Counted from the first letter of the stretch, positions 25,939-34,410 are shown. The stretch is 64,000 nt of DNA from Meiothermus sp. (GCF_026004075.1 NZ_BPIK01000002.1:372001-436000), one strand, 5' to 3'. Numbers and translations are program-made. Notes: a model not told the origin generated them from the sequence alone.

Positions 25939-25968
25939 TTGCGGAGTTTATTGAACCCGTGCTATATT
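25939..25968 (+). promoter_or_regulatory. Candidate promoter of the 26-codon ORF
   Basis: TTGCGG (25939-25944) and TATATT (25963-25968) are separated by 18 bp, placing the transcript start about 30 nt before the small ORF. Only moderately close to consensus. Confidence 0.45.
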
Positions 25969-26005
25969 TCAGAAGTTAGATAAACGTCGCAAAGGAGGTG
26001 AACCC

Positions 26006-26086
26006 ATGACGATGATTTCCCACTTTATGCCTGCCCCTGGAGTCGCGTCGGTGGTTTGCCGCCCTACGGTTGCGTTAATGCCATAA
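26006..26086 (+). CDS. 26-residue ORF with an almost perfect Shine-Dalgarno (leader peptide candidate)
   Basis: ATG at 26006 to TAA at 26086 encodes 26 residues ending 'VCRPTVALMP'. AAAGGAGGTGA, an almost complete complement of the 16S 3' end, is 4 nt upstream, by far the strongest ribosome-binding site noticed in the window. Twenty bp after the stop is a perfect 10-bp hairpin. The peptide is not a clear membrane toxin and no family is known. Inference: a leader peptide whose translation controls the downstream acetyltransferase array. Confidence 0.55.
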   Translation: MTMISHFMPAPGVASVVCRPTVALMP

Positions 26087-26105
26087 AAGCATTCCCGTAT
26101 ATCCG

Positions 26106-26140
26106 AGCTGGGGGCGAATCCAAAAGCCCCCAGCTTTCTC
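26106..26140 (+). terminator. Hairpin after the 26-codon ORF
   Basis: AGCTGGGGGC and GCCCCCAGCT are perfect 10-bp arms with a 10-nt loop, followed by TTCTC. The U-run is weak for a full terminator, so partial termination or attenuation before the acetyltransferase array is plausible. Confidence 0.6.
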
Positions 26141-26235
26141 ATGGTCTTGCGAGAGGAGCGTGATGGAAGTCGTTCAAATCTGTAGAGTCTGGCAGATCGC
26201 CCAGGAAAACACTCCCCCATTTACTGAGGCTTTAT

Positions 26236-27198
26236 ATGAACATCCGTCCCTTCGACTTTTCCGAGGCCGACTACCAGGCCTATGCCACCGTTCGCCAGGC
26301 GGCCCACCCCGAAAGCCCGCTAGACCTAGCCGGGCTGCAACACCTGGATCGTACTCGAGCCCCAAGCGATGTGCTGGCGCGCTTTGTGGTCGAGCAAGCG
26401 GGGGAGGCTGTGGGGGTGCTGGAGTACGCCACCCCCTACTACGACCCCAAGCCGGGGGTGCTCGAGGTGGTCTACTACCTGCACCCCTACCACCAAGTTC
26501 TGGAAGGGCCCTTATGGCAGTTCTTGCAGGGGCACATCGCCCCACACCAGCCCCAAGAGCTACAGGCCACCGTGCGGGAAGACTGGCCCCAGTACCGCTT
26601 TCTAACCGCCCAGGGCTTTGTCGAGGTGGAGCGCCGCTGGGTATCGGTGCTCGACCTGGCCCATTTCGACCCCAGTGCCCTTGCACGCCCCCTACCGCCG
26701 GGTATTACCATCCAGTCCCTCAGCGCCCTGCCCTGGCAGGAGGAGGCTTTTCAGCGCGACCTGTACGCGCTGGAAATCGAGCTGCTGGGCGATGTACCCA
26801 CCGCCGAGCCCATCACTCCCTGGCCTTTTGAGGTCTGGCAGGAGCGCAGCCTCAAAGACCCCAACCTGCTGCCCGAGGGGTTCTTCGTGGCCCTCGAGGG
26901 TGCGCATCTGGTAGGGGTGAGCATGCTCTTCAAGTCCCACCGCCCCCAGACCCTGCAAACCGGCCTCACCGGGGTGCGCAAAAGCCACCGCCGCCAGGGC
27001 CTGGCGCTGGCCCTCAAGCTGCGGGCAGCGGAATTTGCCCGGGCCTACGGAGCCCGGTACATCCGCACCTCCAACCATCAGAGCAACCGCCCCATGCTGG
27101 CCATCAACGAGGCCCTGGGGTTTGTGAAGGAGCCGGCCACGGTGTTGCTGCGTCTCAGTCCCGTACCCCAAAAACCCGGCCAATCAGGTAGTCAATGA
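26236..27198 (+). CDS. Tandem-GNAT acetyltransferase, array member 1
   Basis: A 320-residue protein of two GNAT-like halves. The second half carries the acetyl-CoA motif A 'RKSHRRQGLALALKLRAAEF' and the typical 'SNRPMLAINEALGF' ending; the first half lacks a clear motif A and may be structural. GNAT enzymes transfer acetyl from acetyl-CoA to amines; the substrate is unknown. First of five same-strand paralogues. GAGG lies upstream of the ATG. The 3' end overlaps the opposing small membrane-protein gene by 44 bp. Confidence 0.88.
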   Translation: MNIRPFDFSEADYQAYATVRQAAHPESPLDLAGLQHLDRTRAPSDVLARFVVEQAGEAVGVLEYATPYYDPKPGVLEVVYYLHPYHQVLEGPLWQFLQGHIAPHQPQELQATVREDWPQYRFLTAQGFVEVERRWVSVLDLAHFDPSALARPLPPGITIQSLSALPWQEEAFQRDLYALEIELLGDVPTAEPITPWPFEVWQERSLKDPNLLPEGFFVALEGAHLVGVSMLFKSHRPQTLQTGLTGVRKSHRRQGLALALKLRAAEFARAYGARYIRTSNHQSNRPMLAINEALGFVKEPATVLLRLSPVPQKPGQSGSQ

Positions 27199-27352
27199 GC
27201 AAAAACAGCACCACCAGCATCAGCAGGGCCCCCCACCAGGGGGTGTTGACCCAGATCAGCACGAAGGTGCGCTCGAGCAGTTTGAACAGCAGGAAACCAA
27301 ACACCACCGTGGTTCCGATGGCGGCCAGCTTTTGGCGGATCTTTTGGCTCAC
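27155..27352 (-). CDS. Small two-span membrane protein
   Basis: A 65-residue protein with two predicted helices ('TTVVFGFLLFKLLERTFVLI' and 'ALLMLVVLFLLIDYLIG') and a basic N-terminus. GTG start with TAAGCT 6 nt upstream (leaderless). It lies antisense to the end of acetyltransferase 1 and divergent from acetyltransferase 2 (27 bp apart). No family recognised. Confidence 0.6.
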   Translation of the reverse strand: MSQKIRQKLAAIGTTVVFGFLLFKLLERTFVLIWVNTPWWGALLMLVVLFLLIDYLIGRVFGVRD

Positions 27353-27379
27353 GGCTCCAGCTTAGCATCCGAGGATGAT

Positions 27380-28369
27380 ATGAATAAACTAAACATCAGA
27401 CCCTTTGAAGAGCGCGACTACCCGGCCATCGCCGAGGTGTATATAGCAGCCTGGCCCGACCAGGCCCACAGCGAGGCCAGCCTGCGCGAGCACGACCACC
27501 ACGCGCCCGAGGTCAAGTGGGGCCGTTTTATAGCCGAGCAGGGCGGAGAAGTGGTGGGTGTGGGCGAGTACACCCAGTTTGAGGGCATGTACCACCCGCA
27601 GAAGTTTGGGGTCTGGGTGACGGTGAAGCCAGCTTTCCGTAGCCGGGGGATTGGCAAAGCCCTGTACCAGCAGGTGATGGAGGCCCTAAAGCCCCACGAT
27701 CCCATCTCGATTCTGAGCAGCACCCGCGAAGACCAGCCCCAGGCCATAGCCTGGCTCGAAAAGCTGGGTTTCGTGGAGAAGATGAAGTACTGGGAGTCGC
27801 GCCTTGATGTGCAGAACTTCGACTTCGCTCCCTGGGCCGGCAAAATAGAGGCGGTGGAGGCCGCCGGTTTCCAGCTCAGAAGCCTGAAGGAGCTGGAGGC
27901 CGACCCCCAGCACCGGCAGAAGCTCTACGACCTCTGGCTCGAGGCCCGCTTAGATGTACCCCGTCCGGATGCCCTGAGCGAGGTGCGCTTCGAGGACTAC
28001 TGCAAGTGGGTGTTTGAGAGCAACTACTACCTGCCCGAAGGCCATTTTGTGGCTATAGACAAAACCACCGGCCAGTACGTGGCCCTGAGCACCCTCTGGA
28101 AAACCGACGGCGACTATCTGCAAACCGGCCTCACCGGCACCCGCCGGGCCTACCGCCGTAAGGGCCTGGCCCTGGCCCTCAAGCTCAAAGGCATACAGCT
28201 CGCTCAAACCATGGGCATCCGCGAGATTCGCACCGGCAACGAGTCGAACAATCGGGCCATGCTTGCCATCAACGAGGCCCTGGGCTTTGTGAAGCAGCCC
28301 ATCTGGACGGACTATGTGCTGGCGCTTGGGGAAGAGACCTCGAGCCCCGCCGAACAGGAGTTATCATGA
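27380..28369 (+). CDS. Tandem-GNAT acetyltransferase, array member 2
   Basis: A 329-residue protein with two complete GNAT domains. Motif A appears twice: 'FRSRGIGKALYQQVMEAL' near residue 90 and 'YRRKGLALALKLKGIQLA' near residue 258. The end has 'NNRAMLAINEALGF', almost the same as member 1. Start at 27380, with GAGG just upstream. It overlaps member 3 by 4 bp (ATGA), so the two are co-translated. Confidence 0.9.
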   Translation: MNKLNIRPFEERDYPAIAEVYIAAWPDQAHSEASLREHDHHAPEVKWGRFIAEQGGEVVGVGEYTQFEGMYHPQKFGVWVTVKPAFRSRGIGKALYQQVMEALKPHDPISILSSTREDQPQAIAWLEKLGFVEKMKYWESRLDVQNFDFAPWAGKIEAVEAAGFQLRSLKELEADPQHRQKLYDLWLEARLDVPRPDALSEVRFEDYCKWVFESNYYLPEGHFVAIDKTTGQYVALSTLWKTDGDYLQTGLTGTRRAYRRKGLALALKLKGIQLAQTMGIREIRTGNESNNRAMLAINEALGFVKQPIWTDYVLALGEETSSPAEQELS

Positions 28370-29331
28370 GCTTTTCGATTCGACCCTTCACGCCCGCCGA
28401 CTACCCCGAGCTGGCCCAGATTCGCAACGCCAACTGGCCCGACAACCCAGTGCTGCCCGAGACCCTCGAGGCCAATGACAAGCGCCTGAAGCCGGGGCTG
28501 GTGATGCAGCGTTTGATTGCTGAGCGCGATGGAGTGATGCTGGGTAACGCACTCTTTTTTCACATGGAGTGGATGTACCATCCGCAGAAGTTTTACGTGG
28601 GCCTTACCGTTGACCCTGCACATCAAAGAAAGGGTATCGGCACGGCTTTGTACCAAAAAATGATGGAGGAGTTGCAGCCCTACGACCCCATCAAACTGGT
28701 AGCTTCGACCAGAGCTGACAAACCCGCAGCCCTTAGATTCGCCGAGAAACGTGGTTTTATCGAGGAGTTCAGGGCCTGGGAGTCGAAGCTCGAGCTGGCC
28801 AAGTTCGACCCCGCGCAGTGGGCCAAGGACGTTGAAAAAGTGCTGGCTCAGGGCTACCAAATCAAGACCCTGGCTGAACTCGAGGATGATCCCGACTACG
28901 AGCGCAAAATGTATGAGCTAGATCACGCGGGCAGTTTTGATGTGCCGCTGCCACCCGGCGAGAGCTTCACCTTTCCTGACATGGAACGCTACTGGGAGAA
29001 CGTCCGTTCCAACCCAGACTTCCGCCCTGAGCTGTGGTTCCTGGCGGTGAAGGACGGCGAGTACGCAGGCGTCTCGATGCTCTTCCACCGCCCCGCCGAC
29101 AATGACCTGAATACCGGCTTCACCACAGTAAAGCGGGCGCACCGGCACAAGGGCGTCGCGCTGGCGCTCAAGGTCGCAGCACTGACCCACGCCAAAAATC
29201 TGGGTAAAACCGCAGTCCGCACCGAGAACGCCCAGACCAACCGCTCGATGCTCGGTATTAACGAAGCCCTAGGCTTCGAGAAAATGCCCGCGTGGATTGA
29301 TTTGGTAAAGGTTCTGCGCAAGGAAAACTAG
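28366..29331 (+). CDS. Tandem-GNAT acetyltransferase, array member 3
   Basis: A 321-residue protein with two GNAT domains and motif A at 'HQRKGIGTALYQKMMEEL' and 'HRHKGVALALKVAALTH'. The end, 'TNRSMLGINEALGFEKMP', is homologous to members 1 and 2. Close similarity of the first ~150 residues to member 2 points to a tandem duplication. Followed by ~200 bp without a gene that holds two palindromes. Confidence 0.9.
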   Translation: MSFSIRPFTPADYPELAQIRNANWPDNPVLPETLEANDKRLKPGLVMQRLIAERDGVMLGNALFFHMEWMYHPQKFYVGLTVDPAHQRKGIGTALYQKMMEELQPYDPIKLVASTRADKPAALRFAEKRGFIEEFRAWESKLELAKFDPAQWAKDVEKVLAQGYQIKTLAELEDDPDYERKMYELDHAGSFDVPLPPGESFTFPDMERYWENVRSNPDFRPELWFLAVKDGEYAGVSMLFHRPADNDLNTGFTTVKRAHRHKGVALALKVAALTHAKNLGKTAVRTENAQTNRSMLGINEALGFEKMPAWIDLVKVLRKEN

Positions 29332-29372
29332 TGTGCTACCGATTCTGCTTATAACTGACCGAAAAGCAACGG

Positions 29373-29489
29373 AAAAGACCCTCGGTCGCCCCTCAGGCCA
29401 AGTCGCTTGCGCGATTCCGGCGAAGCCGGAACCTATTCGGCGCGGCAAGTGAGTGGCGCTTTATGCGCCACTCAAGCGCAGATTTAGTA
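29373..29489. repeat. Dispersed palindromic repeat, copy 2 (intergenic, two hairpins)
   Basis: Contains TTCCGGC-GAA-GCCGGAA (29415-29431) and GAGTGGCGC-TTTAT-GCGCCACTC (29451-29473). The block 29439-29489 matches the complement of 9557-9607 inside trmK, and both copies have a GACCCTCG sequence upstream on the equivalent strand. This looks like a REP-type family. Nothing else was seen between 29332 and 29530. Confidence 0.75.
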
Positions 29490-29530
29490 TGAGTTCCAAA
29501 CCTTGTACAAAGCATTCACGGGGCTATTGA

Positions 29531-30418
29531 ATGACCTTCGACTCGAGACCTTACAGGCCTGCCGACTTAGAGCCGCTGACCGCCTTCGTGATCGAGTGCT
29601 GGCGCCGCACCCCCACACCCAGCGAGCTTATGTGCCCCGGCGACTTTGTCTGGGGCGTGCTTCAAAATGCCAGCTACAAACCCGAGGAGGGGATTCGCAT
29701 TTGGGAACAGGGCGGCGCGGTGGTGGGCTTCGTGCTCCAGAAACGAGCCAAGTTCGACCTCTACATGGCCCCGTGGCTCTCGCCGGAGGAACGGTCAGAG
29801 TTGCTTCGAGCGATGGTCACCCACGCCGAGACACACGCCCTTCGTCTCGACCCCACGGCTAGGGTCAGCACCAGCGCGGCCCGCAGCAACCTCGAGACCA
29901 TCCAGACCCTACAAGCCCTCGGGTACGCCCAGAGCCCCTTCATGATGTACTTCCTCGAGCGCCCGCTGGACAAGGACATCCCCCCACCCAGGCTGCCCGA
30001 GGGCTTCGTGGTGCGCCACCTCGAGCCACATGAAATGGGGGAGCGGGTGGACATCCACCTCGAGGTCTGGCACCCTTCGCGGTTTTCCATGCAGAGTTAC
30101 CTCAACATCCGCTCCGCCCCCCTCTACCGCCCCGACTTGGATCTGGTGACGGTCGGCCCCGAAGGCCGATTCGCCTCGTACTGCATCATCTGGTACGACC
30201 CGGTTAATAGGATCGGAGAGTTCGAGCCGGTGGGCACCCGCCCGACCTTCGAGGGCAGGGGCTTGGGGCGGGCGGTGCTGACCGAAGGTTTCCGCCGCCT
30301 GAAGGCGCTGGGGGCAAAGACCGCTTGCGTCGCCTGCGAGCCAGATACTTTAGAGTTCTACCAGTCCGCCGGATTCACCGAGGTCAACCAATGGCTAGAC
30401 TTCAGCAAGACGCTTTGA
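29531..30418 (+). CDS. Tandem-GNAT acetyltransferase, array member 4
   Basis: A 295-residue two-half GNAT protein. The C-terminal half keeps motif A ('FEGRGLGRAVLTEGFRRL') and an ending 'LEFYQSAGFTEVNQW'. The N-terminal half ends near 'YAQSPFMMYFLERPL' with a weaker motif. More divergent from members 1-3. No strong ribosome-binding site near the ATG at 29531. Confidence 0.88.
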   Translation: MTFDSRPYRPADLEPLTAFVIECWRRTPTPSELMCPGDFVWGVLQNASYKPEEGIRIWEQGGAVVGFVLQKRAKFDLYMAPWLSPEERSELLRAMVTHAETHALRLDPTARVSTSAARSNLETIQTLQALGYAQSPFMMYFLERPLDKDIPPPRLPEGFVVRHLEPHEMGERVDIHLEVWHPSRFSMQSYLNIRSAPLYRPDLDLVTVGPEGRFASYCIIWYDPVNRIGEFEPVGTRPTFEGRGLGRAVLTEGFRRLKALGAKTACVACEPDTLEFYQSAGFTEVNQWLDFSKTL

Positions 30419-30464
30419 TCCGCCCCTTCACGATGCAAGCGCGCCCCCTGCTTCGCTCCGCTAC

Positions 30465-30557
30465 GCCAACTACGCCCCGCTGTTGATCATCAACAAGAAG
30501 CTGGGGTTTGCAATGGGTACTACCCAAATCTCTTTTCGAAAACTGCTGAGGAGAACG
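30465..30557 (+). pseudogene. C-terminal GNAT remnant between array members 4 and 5
   Basis: 'NYAPLLIINKKLGFA' resembles the conserved GNAT ending 'NRAMLAINEALGF' of members 1-3. No full domain precedes it. It reads in the same frame as member 5, which starts at its own ATG four codons later. This suggests that another copy was lost by recombination. Confidence 0.5.
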
Positions 30558-30560
30558 GCT

Positions 30561-31361
30561 ATGAAGCTAAAATCACTGGGCCTCCGCACCGAGCTGATGC
30601 TGCGTAGCTTCGAGAGCCATATCGAAGTCAAGCCCAGCTACATCGTGGTGCGCACTCCGCAAAACCCCACCTACCGCTGGGGCAACTACCTGATTTTCCA
30701 AGCGCCGCCCGAACCCGGCGATTTGCAACGCTGGAAGCAGATTTTTCACGATGAGTTGGGCTCGCTGAACCACTTTGTGTTTACCTGGGATTTTGTGAAC
30801 GGTGAGCAAGGGGCAGCGCAGGAATTCCTCGAGGCGGGTTTCTGGTTGGAACAAACCGTGGTACTAACAACGCAGAAGGTTCATCCCCCCCGCACCCTAA
30901 ACACCCATTGCCAGTGCCGCGCCTTCCATTCGGACACCGACTGGGCGCAGTGGCTGGAAATGGCGCTGATCCAAAACGCCGCCCTGCCTGCCGAAGAACG
31001 TGAGGGCGAAGGGTATGAAATCTTTCTGAAGCACAAAGCTGCCGAGTACCGACGCATGATTGCCGCAGGTTGGGGAAACTGGTTCGGGGCGTTTGTGGGT
31101 GGGAAACTGGCAGCTTCGATGGGGTTATTTGCCAAAGACGGGCTGGGGCGTTTTCAGAGCGTGGACACCCATCCCGACTTTCGCCGCCAGGGGCTGGCTG
31201 GAACCCTGCTATACCACGTTGCCCAATACGGCTTTGGTGAGCTGGGTGCAAAGGACTTGGTGATCCTGGCCGACCTGCACTACTTCGCCAAAGACCTCTA
31301 CACCTCGGTGGGGTTCCGACCCACCGAACATCTGGTCGCCCTCGAGTGGGCCTTGGCATAA
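30561..31361 (+). CDS. GNAT acetyltransferase, array member 5
   Basis: A 266-residue protein. The C-terminal half has a GNAT motif A 'HPDFRRQGLAGTLLYHVAQ' and a terminal 'DLYTSVGFRPTEHLV'. The N-terminal half is GNAT-like but degenerate ('FVFTWDFVNGEQ'). Start at 30561 because GAGGAG lies ~8 nt upstream; a TTG at 30483 in the same frame would include the GNAT remnant. Its end converges on the ChrA pair with a 10-bp gap. Confidence 0.85.
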   Translation: MKLKSLGLRTELMLRSFESHIEVKPSYIVVRTPQNPTYRWGNYLIFQAPPEPGDLQRWKQIFHDELGSLNHFVFTWDFVNGEQGAAQEFLEAGFWLEQTVVLTTQKVHPPRTLNTHCQCRAFHSDTDWAQWLEMALIQNAALPAEEREGEGYEIFLKHKAAEYRRMIAAGWGNWFGAFVGGKLAASMGLFAKDGLGRFQSVDTHPDFRRQGLAGTLLYHVAQYGFGELGAKDLVILADLHYFAKDLYTSVGFRPTEHLVALEWALA

Positions 31362-31371
31362 CACCAGCGCC

Positions 31372-31896
31372 TTACAAAAGCCCCGTCAGCAGCCCCAACA
31401 GCCCCCCTCCAGCAATTACGATTACCACACTCACACCGCGGTAAATCAGGTAACAGGCCAGGAGCACCCCCAGGCCCCAGAAGAGCGAGTCCACGCTGAG
31501 CTGAACCAGCACCAGAACCATGCTGGCGCTCAGGCCCATGCTGATGGGCACCAGCGCCTTGCGCAGGGCCCGGCTCCACTGGGCTCTGGACATCCAGGCC
31601 CAGCCCCACACCAGCCACATGGCCCCCACCGCGCCGGGCAAAAACATGCCCAGGGCCGCGGCCAGGGCCCCGCCCAGCCCCGCCGCGCTCAGGCCGTAGA
31701 ACAGCACCGCCAGCATATTGGGCCCCGGTACAAACTGCCCCAGAGCAAAACCATCGGCAAACTCCTGCCGGGTTACCCAGCCGTTGCCGATGATGACGCG
31801 GGCCATCTCGGGCAGGTTGGCCATGCCTCCGCCAAAACTAAGCACCCCAAAGCGCAGGAAGGCCAGGAAGACCTCGAGGGTTTCACCCACGGCCAT
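31372..31896 (-). CDS. ChrA-type chromate transporter, second half
   Basis: A 174-residue membrane protein of the chromate ion transporter family, short-chain type. 'FLRFGVLSFGGGMANLPEM' and 'FADGFALGQFVPGPNMLAVL' are the conserved family motifs, followed by three to four spans. Short ChrA proteins work in pairs; the partner starts upstream and overlaps by 14 bp. The physiological anion may be sulfate or chromate. Confidence 0.88.
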   Translation of the reverse strand: MAVGETLEVFLAFLRFGVLSFGGGMANLPEMARVIIGNGWVTRQEFADGFALGQFVPGPNMLAVLFYGLSAAGLGGALAAALGMFLPGAVGAMWLVWGWAWMSRAQWSRALRKALVPISMGLSASMVLVLVQLSVDSLFWGLGVLLACYLIYRGVSVVIVIAGGGLLGLLTGLL

Positions 31897-33296: not shown

Positions 33297-33315
33297 GCCC
33301 ATAATGGCAGAGGGT

Positions 33316-34410
33316 ATGCTACCTTATCTGCAACTCTCCGGCCCGCCCTACGAGCAAGGCCATCAGCAAGGAACCGCCTGGGCCGGGCAAATCGCCCACA
33401 ACCTCGAGCTCTACTTTCGCCGCTTCGAGGTGGAGTGCAGGCTCTCCCCCAGCGAGGCCCGTGAACGGGGGGCTCGCTACTTCCAGGCCATCCGGGCACA
33501 AAGCCCAGCCTACGCACAGGGCATCGAGGGCATCGCCGCGGGGTCGGGGCAACCCCTGGTAGATATCGCCACCCTCAACGTGCGCTACGAGATCGTCTAC
33601 TACCAGTTCGCCCAGGACACCCCCCCGGTCTACCTGCCCCACGAGGCCCCCAACGGCTGCACCGCCTTTGCCCTGATGCCCGCCCACAGCGCCGACGGCC
33701 ACCTGTGGCTGGGCCAGAACTGGGACTGGATGGAAGGGGTACAGGGGGCCCTGCAGCACGTCACCGAGCCCGACGGAACCCGCATCCTGGCCTTTACCGA
33801 GGCCGGAATTTTCGGCGGCAAGATCGGGCTCAACTCCCACGGTCTGGGCCTGTGCATCAACGGGCTGGTCTCGGTAGGCGACAACTGGGCCGGGCTGGGC
33901 AAGCCCTTCCACCTGCGCACCTACGAGGTGTTGCGGCAGAAAAACCTCGAGGCTGCCCAGGCCGTGGTGCTGGAAGAACCCCGCACCGCCTCGGGCAATT
34001 TCCTGCTGGGGCAGGGGGCCCAGGCTGTGGATATCGAGGTCTCCCCCCAGGGCGTCTGCCGCTGGCAGGACGAGCGCCAGCTGGTGCACGCCAACCACTA
34101 CCTGGCCCCCGAGCGCTACGGCATCGAGGTGCCGCCCATCGAGTGGCTCGACCGCTCGCACCACCGGGCCGAGCGCCTGGCCCTGCGGCTGGGCGAGGTG
34201 GAAAAACCCGGCCTGGAAGACTTCAAAGCGGCCCTGTCCGACCGGGATGGCGCTCCTTATGCGGTCTGCCGCACCGCCAGCCCGGAGGAATACGCGCTGG
34301 GCGAGCCCTACCGCACCATCGTTTCGGTGATTATGAACCTGGGAACAAAGGAGCTCTGGATCTCCGACGGGCCCCCGCACGAGAACCCCTATGTGCGCTA
34401 CCAGGTTTGA
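33316..34410 (+). CDS. C45-family Ntn hydrolase (acyltransferase/penicillin-acylase-like)
   Basis: A 364-residue protein of the C45 family (acyl-CoA:6-aminopenicillanate acyltransferase-like). The N-terminal 'LSGPPYEQGHQQG' motif is typical. The autoprocessing nucleophile Cys lies in 'APNGCTAFALMP', followed by 'GQNWDWMEG'. These enzymes self-cleave before the Cys and hydrolyse or transfer amide acyl groups. Start at 33316 (CATAAT 10 nt upstream); the ATG at 33304 overlaps that box. The substrate is unknown. Confidence 0.85.
   Translation: MLPYLQLSGPPYEQGHQQGTAWAGQIAHNLELYFRRFEVECRLSPSEARERGARYFQAIRAQSPAYAQGIEGIAAGSGQPLVDIATLNVRYEIVYYQFAQDTPPVYLPHEAPNGCTAFALMPAHSADGHLWLGQNWDWMEGVQGALQHVTEPDGTRILAFTEAGIFGGKIGLNSHGLGLCINGLVSVGDNWAGLGKPFHLRTYEVLRQKNLEAAQAVVLEEPRTASGNFLLGQGAQAVDIEVSPQGVCRWQDERQLVHANHYLAPERYGIEVPPIEWLDRSHHRAERLALRLGEVEKPGLEDFKAALSDRDGAPYAVCRTASPEEYALGEPYRTIVSVIMNLGTKELWISDGPPHENPYVRYQV

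Follow-up and report, generated by a model that had tools for sequence, protein, structure and literature searches.

What holds five genes for similar acetyltransferases side by side in a Meiothermus genome, and what would they do there together? The question is raised by positions 26236-31361 of a 64,000 nt stretch of Meiothermus sp. DNA (NZ_BPIK01000002.1:372001-436000, assembly GCF_026004075.1; hereafter the window, whose numbering is used throughout), where five same-strand open reading frames (ORFs), designated A to E, encode GNAT proteins of 320, 329, 321, 295 and 266 amino acids (aa). Judged from sequence, A, B and C are old paralogs, D is a distant relative and E is a GNAT, all on one strand at a fixed locus with a conserved leader at its head. 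We read the locus, with a probability of about 0.6, as a conserved, probably inducible operon of tandem GNATs that N-acetylate amines. This reading is based on the paralogy and fold of the proteins, the acetyl-CoA motif of their C-terminal halves, the conserved locus and gene order, the distribution and structure of the leader, the layout that this leader shares with the vmlR attenuator of Bacillus subtilis and the adjacency of a gene for a C45 acyltransferase.

The GNAT proteins and a linked acyltransferase gene

The five consecutive ORFs have the sizes and positions given in the initial annotation, including a 4-bp overlap of B and C (ATGA), and all five proteins exceed the curated Pfam cut-off for GNATs. 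Each had also been assigned two GNAT halves. Pfam reveals two GNAT stretches only in B and C, and in A, D and E the match lies only in the C-terminal half (residues 146-256 in E). A, B and C are, however, full-length paralogs at 35-42% identity, and profile alignment matches D to them over 280 columns with 99.9% probability. The tandem-GNAT fold is therefore carried by A to D, in B by Pfam, structural model and Z scores, in A and C by full-length homology and in D by profile. For E, the same alignment matches only the C-terminal half (residues 115-266) and not the N-terminal half, and an AlphaFold2 (AF2) model built from three sequences has a pLDDT of 41. Neither D nor E is closely paralogous to A to C, and both belong to other subfamilies. 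The strong similarity initially noted between the N-terminal halves of B and C proved weak, with 45% identity there versus 42% between the C-terminal halves.

The AF2 model of B matches known tandem GNATs over its full length with Z scores of 20-29, MAB_4324 (7q3a) being followed by Sphaerobacter 3tt2 (27.6), ORF14 of the clavulanate cluster (2wpx, 26.4), GlmA (24.9) and MshD (up to 23.9). ORF14 is also the best PDB relative by sequence profile (E 1.4e-22). This relation is by fold and sequence only, and there is no clavam gene cluster around the array, whose neighbours are nrdR, SDR, chromate-transporter-like, metallophosphatase, C45 and macro-domain genes. The acetyl-CoA motif, scored as [QR]xxGx[GA] in 30 family members, is retained in 28 C-terminal but only 17 N-terminal halves and, for this reason, the C-terminal half is probably the working half. 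B has the motif in both halves (RSRGIG and RRKGLA), A retains RRQGLA in the C-terminal half and has lost the N-terminal motif, C has a C-terminal copy and E has RRQGLA; in D, the sequence EGRGLG begins with E instead of Q or R. Most characterised tandem GNATs are likewise reported to work through the C-terminal half (PMC10936415), although there are exceptions (PMC13060382).

None of the array proteins scores above any curated resistance or mycothiol model. Identity with MshD, AAC or Eis was rejected as all curated cut-offs were missed: B, C and D reach 27.4, 19.1 and 24.2 bits with the mycothiol synthase MshD model (TIGR03448; cut-off 163.1), the best score with NCBIfam AAC models is 26.5 bits (cut-off 140) and that with the Eis models (NCBIfam PRK01346) is 16.3 bits (cut-off 576).

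Downstream of E, the C45 gene encodes a predicted autoproteolytic acyltransferase/hydrolase that scores 249.3 bits with NF040521 (cut-off 85), also passes PF03417 and has Gly-Cys (NGCT) where self-cleavage probably occurs. In four of the phylum's families, C45 genes lie next to GNAT genes on the same strand. In G029 and G027, outside the family to which the window belongs, 9 and 21 bp, respectively, separate a GNAT gene from the C45 gene behind it, and in G040, also outside it, C45 lies behind a five-GNAT array on one strand. Thermus has neither C45 nor this GNAT family. As C45 enzymes include 6-aminopenicillanic acid (6-APA) acyltransferase and insect Tan (PMC10194958), acyl-amide turnover may reasonably be a theme common to C45 and the GNATs.

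This linkage is central to a metabolic alternative, to which we give somewhat less than an even chance, in which the GNATs would acetylate a cellular amine (polyamine, amino sugar, amino acid or thiol precursor), C45 would hydrolyse or transfer the acyl group and the leader would sense a metabolite or amino acid. Consistent with such a module are the linkage in four families, the absence of both partners from Thermus, the kinship of C45 members such as Tan with 6-APA acyltransferase and structural neighbours that include GlmA (glucosamine), MshD (mycothiol) and ORF14. The linkage may, however, be inherited rather than functional. Three Meiothermus have C45 without GNATs, and the MshD score (27 bits versus a cut-off of 163) also counts against this alternative.

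A structured leader at the head of the array

The 160 bp upstream of A are conserved in other Meiothermus and encode a structured leader, a candidate attenuator. In genomes with a RIO1-family kinase (RIO) gene the leader precedes that gene, and so marks the head of the operon. The promoter-like element that precedes the leader was not picked up by a consensus scan, but an equivalent TTGCGG ... TGCTACACT is present upstream of the leader in most relatives. A covariance model, R1, built from ten leaders and searched over 111 genomes of the class, matches at the array head in 15 of the 19 array-bearing genomes of the family. These include four non-training genomes from three genera (G022, E 2.6e-16; G018, 3.6e-13; G001, 2.6e-8; G020, 3.5e-8) and G009, also outside the training set, with an E value of 0.007. 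There is no R1 match in three Meiothermus that lack the array (G007, G011, G014). Weak matches in Thermus and others (15-24 bits) share no downstream gene and were discarded as chance, and a search of Rfam gave no match up to E 1, which sets aside a known riboswitch or RNA family. Of the 19 array-bearing genomes, those that lack the leader are G010, G012, G016 and G023, and in G023 gene A is broken. The G023 array is decaying: only the last ~70 codons of A are left, and B is divided between two open frames.

Within the leader, helices P1 and P2 and the terminator have 88.8% of cells paired, as compared with 38-48% for slid controls. Seven pairs are changed on both sides versus a shuffling expectation of 3.3 (seven is reached in 8 of 500 shuffles), covariation support that, coming from ten related sequences, is moderate and not strong. 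The terminator, a G+C-rich hairpin followed by a stretch rich in T, has 92% of its cells paired and was missed by a mechanical terminator scan; in G009 and G015 it is weak or lacking. The 3' arm of P1, GGUUUGCC, could base-pair with GGCAAACC, which lies in the arm and loop of the terminator (87.5% of cells paired versus at most 59% when slid), and this pairing could serve as an antiterminator. P1 covers a near-perfect Shine-Dalgarno sequence and the start of a short ORF; ORF and Shine-Dalgarno are found in 15 of 15 leaders, with ORFs of 23-26 codons. The M-P-stop ending of Meiothermus leaders is reminiscent of TnaC-like stalling at a terminal Pro-stop, but in the leaders of Calidithermus, G001 and G020 the last residue is Ala, Thr or Ser, and this was rejected.

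Most likely, A to E N-acetylate small amines and are induced via this leader. Most transcripts would end at the leader terminator. Should a ribosome stall or fail while on the leader ORF, through a translation inhibitor, an amino-acid shortage or a metabolite, P1 would be opened, the antiterminator could then form and the GNATs would be switched on. Using acetyl-CoA, mainly in their C-terminal halves, they would N-acetylate small amines, presumably with a separate substrate for each paralog; the linked C45 enzyme may strip the resulting amides of their acyl groups or exchange these, and array copies would be gained, lost and recombined between species. Several observations do not sit easily with this scheme. 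The array is present without the leader in G010, G012 and G016, the antiterminator helix has no covariation and the frame of the leader ORF has no clear excess of silent changes over other frames. The leader could thus be a structured RNA with an incidental ORF, although silent and non-silent changes could fail to separate the frames if structure also constrains the ORF. In addition, C45 and the GNATs are located separately in G028, G032 and G036, and C45 persists in G007, G011 and G014, which lack a GNAT array.

The vmlR leader consists of an anti-antiterminator with an upstream ORF, a middle hairpin and a terminator (PMC9226507). Having a leader ORF, an anti-antiterminator-like helix and a terminator in the same layout, the locus might be an antibiotic-resistance operon in which the GNATs inactivate aminoglycosides or other ribosome-targeting drugs, which are sensed through ribosome stalling on the ORF, as for vmlR and erm; AAC enzymes belong to the GNATs, and the arrays differ between species as resistance genes do. 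We nevertheless consider such a role unlikely. The best matches to curated AAC and resistance models remain below threshold, at 26-31 bits versus cut-offs of 140-210, and A and B, present almost throughout the genus and long retained, are unlike most acquired resistance genes. Antibiotic inactivation and ordinary amine metabolism both fit the array, and the detoxification proposed in the initial annotation receives indirect support from the conserved attenuator-like leader.

It is similarly doubtful that the leader is a metabolite-binding, riboswitch-like RNA in which the ORF is incidental. The conserved helices and some compensatory changes are as expected for such an RNA, and substitutions in the ORF frame are no more coding-like than those in frame 2, but the ORF, the start codon region and a AGGAGGTGA-type Shine-Dalgarno are kept in nearly all 15 leaders, even in distant ones with different nucleotides. 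A more speculative extension of the inducible-operon reading, possible but not one we would bet on, is that this is a new class of ribosome-sensing leader, specific to Meiothermaceae tandem-GNAT operons, whose peptide (core VVC-x-R-x-[VI]-[MT]) stalls on an inhibitor or metabolite that the array enzymes acetylate, and so part of an unreported inducible detoxification or metabolite-control system. In the literature searched (openly licensed papers only), we found neither the ordered array, the leader nor the C45 link, and nothing relevant on Meiothermus GNAT arrays or RNA motifs.

Age, decay and exchange of the array

Members of the A/B/C family are present in 40 of the 111 genomes, often as arrays, and arrays of 2-8 members recur across the class, with eight in Calidithermus chliarophilus (G022), five in G040 and four in G099. 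The C. chliarophilus array (L053; C3:1273446-1287139), the largest seen, has eight A/B/C-type GNATs and an E gene arranged around a chromate-transporter pair, behind a leader and a RIO gene. In a maximum likelihood tree of 88 family members, A belongs to a clade of 24 rows (100/99) in which several families of the order are represented, B and C are in separate well-supported clades that each reach outside Meiothermus, and the nearest kin of all three are in other genera. As these clades extend beyond Meiothermus, the A/B/C duplications predate the genus on this tree. A and B occupy one conserved locus, whereas C, D and E have been gained or lost among relatives; D and E are patchy, present in 8 and 13 of 41 relatives, respectively, often adjoining A/B-type genes.

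The repeated duplication and loss envisaged initially is correct in kind, as documented by the recurring arrays, the GNAT remnant and the RIO relic. As a graded local amplification it does not stand: the five genes are not one series but include separate pre-genus orthogroups, and part of the array was recently exchanged. They are not each other's nearest relatives, which argues against recent amplification and leaves the common ancestry of A to D intact. Adjacent same-strand genes, the plain paralogy of A to C and the remnant might suggest that a single GNAT gene was recently amplified in place in this lineage, but this is very improbable and was rejected on the tree, where A, B and C are distinct old orthogroups in separate starred clades with other genera and families, and D and E are patchy members of different subfamilies.

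A repeat and a C-terminal GNAT fragment had been taken as the only interruptions of the array. Both are present, but a small antisense gene was overlooked, and there is a RIO relic upstream of A (Table 1). The fragment is genuine: its ~25 residues match the C-terminal ends of GNATs when compared with the 88 family members (blastp-short, E 2e-5); a start-like TTG-IRPFT stretch overlaps the D stop codon, and a 13-bp difference within the remnant from G016, another Meiothermus, fits decay. Partial copies of the palindromic repeat in the C-D spacer are located elsewhere in the same genome, at G000 C1:318219, C2:381562 and C2:488516. By blastn, the ends of the RIO relic have 80% and 76% identity to the corresponding ends of the L070 RIO region. 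The RIO gene is intact between leader and A in relatives that include G003 and G005 (PF01163, 116.6 bits), and is the first operon gene in several. The antisense gene, between A and B, is found by tblastn at the equivalent place in ~14 genomes of Meiothermus, Calidithermus and relatives with 58-92% identity. Its 65-aa product, a putative membrane protein, has no Pfam or NCBIfam match.

Identity to G016 is 65-98% upstream of the tract listed in Table 1 and 65-86% in the first part of C, then ~99% from ~28990 through D and E to past 31700. By gene, it is 99.3-99.6% for D and E and 99.5% for the C-D spacer, as compared with 84-89% for nrdR, SDR, A, B and C (as a whole) and 93-97% for the genes to the right. 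This ~99% tract, which takes in the 3' half of C, the remnant, D and E, is best read as recent between-species recombination, which would make C a mosaic. The locus illustrates how a paralog array may persist for long by gain, loss and between-species recombination, and not by fresh amplification.

In Meiothermus and Calidithermus, the array is flanked by nrdR-SDR on one side and, local losses aside, by the chromate-transporter pair on the other, with metallophosphatase, C45 and macro-domain genes beyond. At L052, L058, L059, L060, L070 and L071, though not in the window, the interval between SDR and the array holds a large signalling gene on the opposite strand (~915 aa when intact), labelled GAF/HD-GYP-like by eye only.

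Table 1. Features of the array region, in window coordinates
Feature	Position	Strand	Description or basis
Promoter-like element	25939-25968	+	TTGCGG, 18-nt spacer, TGC-TATATT (extended -10 type); read from sequence
Leader RNA	25986-26146	+	Conserved, structured, candidate attenuator, ~155 nt; covariance model R1
Leader helix P1	25987-26069		
Leader helix P2	26071-26099		
Intrinsic terminator	26106-26135		
Possible antiterminator pairing	26053-26060 with 26113-26120		
Leader ORF	26006-26086	+	26 codons, MTMISHFMPAPGVASVVCRPTVALMP then stop, after Shine-Dalgarno AAAGGAGGTGA
RIO1-family kinase relic	26146-26235	+	Both ends kept, middle deleted; blastn
Gene A (P0001)	26236-27198	+	Tandem GNAT; PF00583 at residues 199-296; orthogroup A; motif table
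Small antisense gene	27155-27352	-	65 aa, two hydrophobic stretches, overlaps end of A; tblastn and translations
Gene B (P0002)	27380-28369	+	Tandem GNAT; PF00583 76.4 bits; AF2 pLDDT 94; VIA-align Z 28.6 to 7q3a
Gene C (P0003)	28366-29331	+	Tandem GNAT, probable mosaic: 5' part diverged, 3' part in recombination tract
Candidate recent recombination tract	28990-31750	+	Common with G016, ~99% nt identity, right edge approximate; identity profile
C-D spacer	29332-29530	+	Palindromic repeat
Gene D (P0004)	29531-30418	+	Distant tandem GNAT; C-terminal half matches GNAT Pfam
Sixth-GNAT remnant	30415-30557	+	IRPFT N-terminus and ~25 C-terminal residues, interior lost
Gene E (P0005)	30561-31361	+	GNAT in C-terminal half; N-terminal half has no profile match
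C45 acyltransferase/hydrolase	33307-34410	+	Autoproteolytic, Ntn (N-terminal nucleophile)-type; PF03417, NF040521; 2 kb from E

Comparison with known systems

As in the vmlR attenuator, the Meiothermus leader is structured: its first helix contains a short ORF and is followed by a middle hairpin and an intrinsic terminator, and an antiterminator could form between the 3' arm of the first helix and the terminator. It differs from vmlR in phylum and sequence, in its ~26-codon ORF (3 codons in vmlR), in having the Shine-Dalgarno within the helix and in a possible antiterminator that lacks covariation. A leader tied to an operon and containing a readable ORF provides an experimental handle, as the agent that stalls the ribosome would point to the likely substrate class.

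GNAT expansions in Deinococcus-Thermus have been known for two decades, mostly without assigned functions. The part of the 2007 account that treats family counts notes an expansion in the Deinococcus lineage (PMC1978522), lineage-wide GNAT growth in the same phylum as here; relative to those counts, the Meiothermaceae array is ordered and conserved, with old orthogroups that extend across families. The C45 protein resembles the C45/AAT Ntn acyltransferases 6-APA acyltransferase and Tan in passing the family models and in its Gly-Cys cleavage site, but its gene adjoins GNAT arrays and not beta-lactam or dopamine genes. With the tandem GNATs ORF14 (2wpw/2wpx), MAB_4324, Sphaerobacter 3tt2, GlmA (5kf1) and MshD, B shares two GNAT folds per chain, aligning over 267-298 residues with Z scores of 22-29, and the family shares an acetyl-CoA motif that is stricter in one half. 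Identity to these proteins is, however, only 14-23%, and the Meiothermus genes belong to arrays of 2-8 paralogs with a shared leader.

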